From the IMG/VR virus record IMGVR_UViG_3300038701_001661, positions 1 through 21,253 of that record: a DNA stretch of 21,253 nucleotides. One strand, written 5' to 3'. Shown here piece after piece: positions 1-9,715 of this stretch; the first letter of the stretch is position 1; every line of letters begins with the position of its first letter. The notes under the pieces were generated by a model, which had not been told where the DNA came from, did no database searches, and saw only the letters and a program-made list of their open reading frames with translations. The translations under genes and the position numbers were made by a program. This DNA comes from a virus.

Positions 1-407
1 GAGCCTATTTCATGTAGAATTTCAAATAAATAAGTTTTACCAATGCCTACAGGCCCATGAATTAACAGGCCTTTGTTAAATGATGGATCTGATTTAATTA
101 ATTTTGATTCTAAAAATTCAGGATCTTTTAAGAAGTATTTAAAAATTAATTCTACTATTTCTGCATTTTCACCATCTATTTTATAAATGGGTTTACCTGT
201 AGAAGATGCTACGGCTGCACTATGATATTTAAAACGGCCATCAAATGTAGATCTATCTAAAATAAATTTAGGCCTATCTTCTACCTGGCCCTGGCTTTTA
301 ACTTTTGGCAGTATTTGGCCTATTGATTTAGCTGAATCATCTTTATCAAATTTAGCTGCCTTTGCAGCTGCTGAATCTTCTTTAATTTGTTCTGTTTGTT
401 TAGTCAT
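1..407 (-). CDS. DnaC/AAA-type ATP-binding replication protein (3' part missing)
   Basis: The reading frame starts at an ATG at 407-405 and stays open to the window edge, so only about the first 135 residues are present. Residues 118-125 read GPVGIGKT, a Walker A (P-loop) motif, preceded by hydrophobic GLLIH. This arrangement is typical of DnaC/IstB-like helicase loaders and related AAA+ ATPases. The first 40 residues are charged and Ala/Lys-rich and look disordered. The gene follows a replication initiator gene and its ATG overlaps the initiator stop codon by 8 bases (ATGACTAA), implying translational coupling. The initiator-plus-loader pair parallels lambda O-P and P22-type modules. The Walker B and sensor motifs lie outside the window, so another P-loop ATPase is possible. 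Confidence 0.75.
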   Translation of the reverse strand, partial: MTKQTEQIKEDSAAAKAAKFDKDDSAKSIGQILPKVKSQGQVEDRPKFILDRSTFDGRFKYHSAAVASSTGKPIYKIDGENAEIVELIFKYFLKDPEFLESKLIKSDPSFNKGLLIHGPVGIGKTYLFEILHEIG

Positions 408-1236
408 ATTTAGATAATTTTTCTGCTGTTTTCGTGTCTTTAACCTCAACTTTAGCCGTAGAATTATTAGCCTGTGCTAAAAGCTGTGTAATGTTTTTTC
501 TTAATGATGCTGTAGATAAAATATTAGCCTTCCAAAATGTAGAATTAGGCCCTTTTAGATATTTATACGCTTCTAATAGCATTTCACGTGTAACTTTATC
601 CTGTTCAATCATTAAACGTATTGGATCTACCCAGGTAATAAATTTAGCCGCGGTTTGCTTTTTTTTAGGTGCGCGCCTGGCATCTAAATTTTTTATTATA
701 AGTTCATTAAATTCTTTTGCTATTTTAAAATAAAATTGATGTTTAGAAGGCACATCTGAAATTTTAATTTCTGATAACGCACGTTTATTATTAATATAAT
801 TATATATAGTATTATTATTGTGTGCAACTTTTGCACCAGGCTGCTGTGCAACTTTTGCACCATTATTAGGCAAATTTTGCACAAGGTGTGCAATTTTTTC
901 ACCATCTTTTTCAACTCTTTGCACAGGGTGTGCAAATTTTGCACCAGGTGTAAAATATACCTTCTGCCATTTAGCAGTAGTTTTTAGATGTTTAGTTACT
1001 TCATGCCTAATTAAAAAGCCGTTTTTTACTAATTTATTAATAATATTAATGATGGTTCTGCGTGATAAATCAAGTTCATCACTCATAGTAGATTTAGACA
1101 TATAGCACCATCCAGGCACATCTGAATCAGGTTTAACTGATAAATGATAAATCATATCAGTTAAAGTATATTCATCTATTTTAAGGCCGTGCTTTTTTCT
1201 AAATTCGTGCTGTATTGTTGTATATACTAATGCCAT
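400..1236 (-). CDS. Phage replication initiator (O-like, winged HTH)
   Basis: This 278-residue protein has an N-terminal helix-turn-helix domain: residues 48-78 include KSTMSDELDLSRRTI and INKLVKNGFL, the pattern of HTH_36-type phage initiators. The middle (residues about 97-140) is a low-complexity linker in which G-A-K-V/F-A-H recurs. The C-terminal half (about 160-250) is helical and basic, with APKKKQTAAKF and a DnaD/loader-interaction-like stretch. The linker is encoded by an array of DNA iterons (821-946) followed by an A/T-rich tract, the arrangement of lambda O, whose gene contains its own origin. I therefore infer that the N-terminal domain binds the iterons and the C-terminal part recruits the ATPase encoded next. 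It starts 2 bases after the stop of the MazG-like gene upstream. Confidence 0.8.
   Translation of the reverse strand: MALVYTTIQHEFRKKHGLKIDEYTLTDMIYHLSVKPDSDVPGWCYMSKSTMSDELDLSRRTIINIINKLVKNGFLIRHEVTKHLKTTAKWQKVYFTPGAKFAHPVQRVEKDGEKIAHLVQNLPNNGAKVAQQPGAKVAHNNNTIYNYINNKRALSEIKISDVPSKHQFYFKIAKEFNELIIKNLDARRAPKKKQTAAKFITWVDPIRLMIEQDKVTREMLLEAYKYLKGPNSTFWKANILSTASLRKNITQLLAQANNSTAKVEVKDTKTAEKLSKYD
784..819. other. A/T-rich tract beside the iterons, candidate DNA-unwinding element
   Basis: Thirty-five of these 36 bases are A or T; the only G is at 809. It lies directly beside the first iteron, on the side downstream in the direction of transcription. In the lambda origin the A/T-rich tract also follows the iterons within the O gene. 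I infer that this is where the duplex melts when the initiator binds. The assignment depends on the iteron assignment. Confidence 0.65.
821..946. repeat. Six-iteron array inside the initiator gene (putative replication origin)
   Basis: Six related 18-bp copies start at 821, 845, 867, 887, 909 and 929 on the + strand. The best copies read TGTGCAACTTTTGCACCA (821 and 845) and TGTGCAAATTTTGCACCA (929); the core GTGCAAA-TTTTGCAC is close to palindromic. Start-to-start spacings are 24, 22, 20, 22 and 20 bp, about two helical turns. Copies at 867 and 909 are read in a different codon frame from the others (encoding VQN/VQR instead of AKV/AKF), so the DNA, not the peptide, is being conserved. The copy at 909 is the most degenerate. 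Confidence 0.85.
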
Positions 1237-9073: not shown

Positions 9074-9715
9074 TTAATAATGTTCATAAATATCTGTTAC
9101 ATAGTCTTTATTAGCTTCATAGAAGGCCTGCGAAAACCCAGGCGGCGTAATAGATCTTAATTCTTTAGTGCGTTCTGATTTACCGCCGTAAAGCCTGTGC
9201 ATTTTAGAACCTTCTGTAGGTTCTACAGGTGTTTTAATTAGATCTGTGTTAAAATCACCGTATAAAGCTGTTTTTTTTGTGTATGGTTCGCCAAAGTCGC
9301 AAGGGTTAAAATACATTAAAGGTTTACCTATTTCAGGCACTAAATTATGCATACGACCTACAGGGTTTTCAATGGCCCAAAAATCAGGCATACATAAATC
9401 TATTATGCGCAGCGTTTGATAAACTAAATCTACAGCTGCTTCTGTTCTGCCATCAGCATCTTTATCTTTAAACCACCGCGCGCCTGATGATGCAAATTCT
9501 GTACACGGTACAGCCGCTAATATGCCATCTACTGTACCATAATTATCAAAAATGTTTTGATAAAAATAATCAGCGCAGGCATCATTAACATCTGTGAAGG
9601 TAGAAAACATATCAGAAGTATGTTTAATATCCCATAGTATTACATTCCATCCTGCACGCGCAAAAGGCGCGGCCCAATTACCGCTATAATCAAATAAAGA
9701 TAGTAGTGTTTTCAT
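9074..9715 (-). CDS. DNA cytosine-C5 methyltransferase (small phage type)
   Basis: The protein has 213 residues. SLFDYSG (6-12) matches motif I (SAM binding). VPCTEFASSG contains Cys 71 in the place of the catalytic Pro-Cys of motif IV. AIENPVGRM (115-122) matches motif VI (Glu-Asn). YTKKTALYGDF (146-155) and RSITPPGFSQAF (187-198) match the late family motifs. It would transfer methyl from SAM to carbon 5 of cytosine in DNA. It is short compared with typical C5 enzymes (300 or more residues), leaving little room for a target-recognition domain. In a phage it would shield the genome from host restriction. It is the third gene downstream of promoter module B. Confidence 0.8.
   Translation of the reverse strand: MKTLLSLFDYSGNWAAPFARAGWNVILWDIKHTSDMFSTFTDVNDACADYFYQNIFDNYGTVDGILAAVPCTEFASSGARWFKDKDADGRTEAAVDLVYQTLRIIDLCMPDFWAIENPVGRMHNLVPEIGKPLMYFNPCDFGEPYTKKTALYGDFNTDLIKTPVEPTEGSKMHRLYGGKSERTKELRSITPPGFSQAFYEANKDYVTDIYEHY

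Follow-up and report, generated by a model that had tools for sequence, protein, structure and literature searches.

A probable lambda-type replication origin of GTGCA palindromes inside the initiator gene of an IMG/VR virus

In the closest systems described so far, the repeats bound by a phage initiator lie within the initiator gene. The record of phage lambda (NC_001416) carries iterons of the form CCCTC-AAAAC-GAGGG, spaced by 20, 24, and 23 bp and followed by A/T-rich DNA. Dimers of lambda O on adjacent iterons form the O-some (PMC3985674, PMC7466680). Lambdoid Stx phages have six iterons in the gene, beside an A/T-rich region, and their O proteins are dimers (PMC7466680). Gene 18 of P22 and of phage L encodes distantly related initiators, each with its own repeats in the coding region (PMC8022706).

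We analyzed the entire virus record IMGVR_UViG_3300038701_001661 of IMG/VR (21,253 bases; hereafter the window), which is probably a fragment because a P-loop ATPase gene runs off one end. The initial annotation had proposed that the initiator gene harbors a replication origin of the lambda type. We regard it as very likely that positions 784 to 946 are such an origin, where the initiator would bind and replication would fire; the identity of the initiator, the array in its linker, the arrays of its relatives, and the layout of the lambda record all support this reading. The features concerned are as follows.

400..1236, minus strand: replication initiator gene, 278 aa (Pfam and PHROG matches); winged helix-turn-helix (HTH) at about aa 7 to 97, repeat-coding linker at about aa 97 to 157, C-terminal part at about aa 160 to 278
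3..407, minus strand: truncated P-loop ATPase gene (GPVGIGKT), candidate helicase loader by sequence similarity, overlapping the end of the initiator gene
821..946, minus strand: array of six iterons inside the initiator open reading frame (ORF), with a 15-bp palindromic core GTGCA-N5-TGCAC, 20 to 24 bp apart
929..946, minus strand: iteron closest to the region coding for the HTH, without arm mismatches, frame 1 (GAKFAH)
909..926, minus strand: degenerate iteron, three arm mismatches, one good half left, frame 0 (VQRVE)
887..904, minus strand: iteron with one arm mismatch, frame 1 (GEKIAH)
867..884, minus strand: iteron with two arm mismatches, frame 0 (VQNLP)
845..862, minus strand: iteron with perfect arms, frame 1 (GAKVAQ)
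821..838, minus strand: iteron adjoining the A/T tract, without arm mismatches, frame 1 (GAKVAH)
784..819, minus strand: candidate DNA-unwinding element, A/T at 35 of 36 bases, coding for the Asn-rich NNTIYNYINNK

Judged by its family matches, the product of the ORF at 400 to 1236 is a replication initiator. It matched Pfam HTH_36 (PF13730) with 27.3 bits, above the gathering cutoff of 25, and phrog_391, named "replication initiation O-like," at 1.8e-16 across aa 41 to 272. No match to Phage_rep_O (PF04492), the Pfam family of the lambda O protein, was obtained at E ≤ 0.1. In the AlphaFold2 model, the N-terminal winged helix had pLDDT values of mostly 80 to 94, the linker fell to 33 to 48 where the repeats lie, and the C-terminal part was poorly modeled; the repeats thus encode a linker, predicted to be disordered, between the winged helix and the C-terminal part, as initially annotated. 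The winged-helix fold matched MarR-type proteins and the DnaD N-terminal domain with Z of about 9; the DnaD match (Z of 9.2 over 95 residues, rmsd of 4.5) was tied with those to MarR-type proteins, and Pfam DnaD_N reached 16 bits, under its cutoff. Foldseek found no match for the predicted initiator structure at E ≤ 0.001, and no lambda O structure was among the fold matches listed. These matches did include the centromere-binding winged helices TubR and AspA, as would suit a partition (centromere) or incompatibility site of a plasmid-like prophage bound by the winged helix. We consider such a site very improbable, given that the array lies inside an initiator gene beside a loader-like ATPase and that an unsystematic look noticed no partition ATPase or GTPase nearby.

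The C-terminal part of the initiator is 46 to 47% identical to genes of the Polaribacter phages Danklef and Freya. A single-protein search for close relatives of the initiator returned one locus among viral contigs and no locus among genome contigs. The virus had been described as a Mu-like-tailed Bacteroidota phage. Its tail gene matches are contractile-tail baseplate families; a Bacteroidota host is suggested by the similarity to the Polaribacter phages. The GC skew of the 21-kb record had no turning point and was uninformative. We also observed a match to C-5 cytosine DNA methylase (PF00145, 30.3 bits), possibly incomplete, at 9074 to 9715 on the minus strand.

The six repeats in the initiator gene are real. 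All of the annotated copies were recovered, with starts at 821, 845, 867, 887, 909, and 929 and spacings of 24, 22, 20, 22, and 20 bp, and the five-base center of the cores is mostly A-rich on the coding strand. Scored over the 10 arm positions of the coding-strand 15-mer, three copies are perfect and one is nearly so, whereas two are degenerate, which qualifies the count of six iterons. The change of frame reported for the copies at 867 and 909 was also found (frame 0 against frame 1 for the other four), as was the 36-base tract with one G beside the array; 784 to 819 is the sole 36-mer in the window with 35 of 36 A+T.

A search with GTGCAAAAWTTGCAC allowing up to 3 mismatches gave 11 matches, compared with a mean of 2.9 and a maximum of 8 in 100 shuffles. 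When the same peptide was redrawn synonymously with the codon usage of the window, the observed repeat score was reached in 1 of 20,000 redraws. The weaker control of permuting the region's own synonymous codons reached it in 458 of 10,000 and was only weakly significant, because the permuted codons are already iteron codons. Outside the initiator gene, the 21-kb record has no site with 12 of 14 matches. Furthermore, GTGCA-type sites were confined to the initiator array in the four viral records checked (control, 0).

Relatives were sought by the DNA pattern, which consisted of one iteron and the start of the second and used no protein information. Among viral contigs, this array search returned 34 stretches, compared with 2 for the reversed pattern. 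We scanned 42 ORFs, 39 reached through the DNA pattern (viral and genome contigs) and 3 chosen by protein (the window, L004, and L008). HTH_36 was matched by 22 of the 42, phrog_186 by 23, and replication-initiator or loader PHROGs by more than 20; two genes with GTGCA arrays (L032 and L076) matched Phage_rep_O. In the genes found by the DNA pattern, the iteron reads as VQNLH, GAKIAP, or CKNCT, depending on the frame. In 10 of 21 genes, the copies are spread over at least two frames, and all three frames are used within single genes at L032, L036, L094, and L120. A search of phage and plasmid records with the composite repeat peptide gave no match.

The array pattern also returned 90 stretches in genome contigs. 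This set is mixed: a Prevotellaceae Fic gene is in it, as are nucleotidyltransferase-HTH genes that have no relation to initiators, and its counts were therefore left out as proof. In the Fic-domain gene of L061 and of the similar Prevotellaceae contigs L073, L075, L081, and L103, GTGCAAAA..TTGCAC and GTGCAAAA form a pair close to the 3' end, at an almost constant position, in frame 2 (CKNCT). Three Bacillota contigs (L046, L068, and L084) carry the same paired motif at the 5' end of nucleotidyltransferase-like genes with an HTH domain, perhaps as an operator. In the near-identical contigs L012, L013, and L024, the GTGCAAAA array is intergenic and outside long ORFs (longest, 35 aa).

An alignment search with the N-terminal domain, with no DNA criterion, yielded ten viral loci. 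These relatives carry palindromic arrays in the same linker as the window, and their arms differ: GTGCA in L135, GTAAA with TTTAC in L136 to L142, and CTCCA or ATCCA with TGGAG or TGGAT in L143 and L144. The linker peptides shift along with the arms (GKESLP, VKKVY, CKESLH, and PLQKME), whereas the build of 5-bp arms around a 5-bp center (5-5-5) is constant. Pooled iteron spacing had a mean of 21.9 bp (s.d., 2.1) and was divisible by 3 in just 12 of 68 cases, so two-turn phasing overrides the codon register. In 22 of 23 genes, lambda O included, A/T content is higher in the 40 bases on the 3' side of the array than in the gene; the 5' side has no such enrichment.

These relatives bear out the initial proposal that the DNA repeat, not the peptide, is conserved: they alter both the peptide and the half-site and retain 5-5-5 palindromes arrayed about 22 bp apart. 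We saw no homologue that keeps GAKxAH without the palindrome. It could be argued that the repetitive linker peptide was selected and that the DNA repeat is its by-product, as G[AE]K[FIV]A is common to four window copies and L200, L204, and L210 keep all copies in one frame. This is extremely unlikely, however, in view of the copies in other frames (two in the window and many in relatives, with some genes using all three), of the spacings rarely divisible by 3, and of the synonymous redraws described above. Similarly improbable are RNA or single-strand hairpins acting in attenuation or translation control. The arms of the inverted repeats do stay complementary like those of a stem, but the stems would be just 5 bp, the two-turn spacing fits duplex DNA, and G-T accounts for 10 of 53 broken arm pairs, which is near the level of random substitution, so wobble is not favored.

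The 5-5-5 build belongs to a subset of HTH_36 proteins. In a broad sample of 129 HTH_36 ORFs, 5-5-5 arrays occur in about one in ten, and gaps of another length (such as 3) score too; the build is thus not common to all HTH_36 proteins. The HTH initiator-like genes of L185 and L241, found de novo, have 5-5-5 arrays with new arms (TTGCC/GGCAA and TAAGG/CCTTA). In the initiator ORF of L142 (2992 to 3600; IMGVR_UViG_3300003309_000015), a TGA interrupts the frame at a position that is Gly in relatives, and reading with table 25 (the SR1/Gracilibacteria code) keeps the ORF open; its iterons are GTAAAGAAAGTTTAC, and a DnaC-like loader lies downstream. From these features, the in-gene origin design seems to extend to phages whose hosts use code 25.

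The gene downstream of the initiator may provide a helicase partner. The window ATPase resembles the Freya replication gene weakly (41% identity over 51 aa), which in turn matches DnaC-like loaders; the truncated ATPase itself had no PHROG family match. In relatives, the neighboring gene is a DnaB helicase (L135, L138, and L139) or a DnaC-like loader (L136, L142, and Freya). These neighbors bear on whether the array is instead an intragenic operator used by the HTH protein to repress or adjust its own operon, with replication starting elsewhere. Winged-helix proteins with the fold of the initiator are mostly transcription regulators, and the Polaribacter homologues are annotated as "transcriptional regulator." Nevertheless, six phased sites some 300 to 400 bases into a gene with a polar A/T tract would be unusual for an operator, and both the PHROG names and the adjacent genes for helicases or loaders speak for replication. 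We therefore judge the operator reading unlikely, and autoregulation can coexist with origin function.

For the origin in the initiator gene, we propose a mechanism modeled on the lambda O-some. The N-terminal winged helix would bind each 15-bp palindrome as a dimer, and the six sites, two helical turns apart, would align the dimers along the same face of the helix in a single nucleoprotein complex. Strain from this complex would then open the A/T tract at 784 to 819, after which the C-terminal part, together with the ATPase encoded downstream, would recruit the replicative helicase, allowing the origin to fire.

A possible determinant of arm specificity emerged from the recognition helix. The third residue of its start (R60 in the window) is arginine in 20 of 25 GTGCA genes, a count that leaves out L126 for having no GTGCA copy, compared with 0 of 10 genes with other arms and about 16% of the broad HTH_36 sample. 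Within that sample, the correlation was 6 of 6 against 14 of 123. The R60 correlation ignores kinship in a small and related set, and of the six genes in the broad sample, three come from genomes that the DNA pattern had already returned and the remaining three are each other's relatives; thus, a link of R60 with the GTGCA arms is possible and is offered as a lead only. Genes with arginine at position 60 and no array also exist. More broadly, we suggest, tentatively and at less than even confidence, that an origin design of 5-5-5 15-bp palindromes, two turns apart in winged-helix initiator genes and with A/T-rich DNA on the 3' side, extends far beyond the lambdoids, that its two arms diversify jointly within a constant build, and that specificity lies partly in R60.

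We know of no established origin for most environmental phages. If such a shared design and the R60 specificity hold, initiator-origin pairs could be read from sequence, and should the in-gene 5-5-5 palindrome prove to be the rule among these initiators, an origin could be located from one gene; the hosts of the phages concerned would range from Bacillota to code-25 bacteria. The matched changes of arm and recognition helix make the predicted binding specificity directly testable. In addition, this initiator family would be a natural experiment in overlapping information, in which one piece of DNA has to serve as a phased array for binding and also encode a linker peptide that can be tolerated, a conflict solved by rotating through reading frames.

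Comparison with lambda agrees with the earlier statement that lambda O has the same layout with a different iteron. On lambda's own record, gene O and ori-lambda have in common with the window an origin in the initiator gene, 5-5-5 palindromes with an A-rich center, spacing of about two turns, an A/T-rich 3' side, and a next gene for helicase loading (a candidate in the window). Lambda differs in having four iterons rather than six and CCCTC/GAGGG rather than GTGCA/TGCAC arms, whereas the window initiator is without a Phage_rep_O match and its partner is a P-loop ATPase, not a recognized lambda P. The Stx phage origins share six in-gene iterons with the window, although they have lambda-type arms and belong to close relatives of lambda O. 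P22 and phage L are Salmonella phages with other repeat sequences, the unit being 11 bp in phage L. The gene annotated as a regulator in Freya and Danklef has a C-terminal part homologous to that of the window and in-gene linker repeats, with a loader-like neighbor in Freya; its N-terminal part and its repeats (period of 12 or 23 bp) differ, a pattern that looks like a joint exchange of the DNA-reading half and its site. IMG/VR 3300001200_000005 (L004/L135) is 58% identical to the window in the N-terminal half and shares the GTGCA arms, the place of the array, and the Asn-rich A/T tract, whereas its center is GAAAG and a DnaB helicase gene directly follows.

Among open papers, we found no description of a GTGCA-type iteron or of HTH_36 origins, an absence of little weight. 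In-gene iterons of unrelated initiators are already known from lambda, P22, and phage L (PMC8022706); thus, the layout of the window is a known one, and its putative origin is a further case of it. In addition to the lead on specificity, our comparison adds a 5-5-5 build that distant phages share, with arms that can be exchanged.
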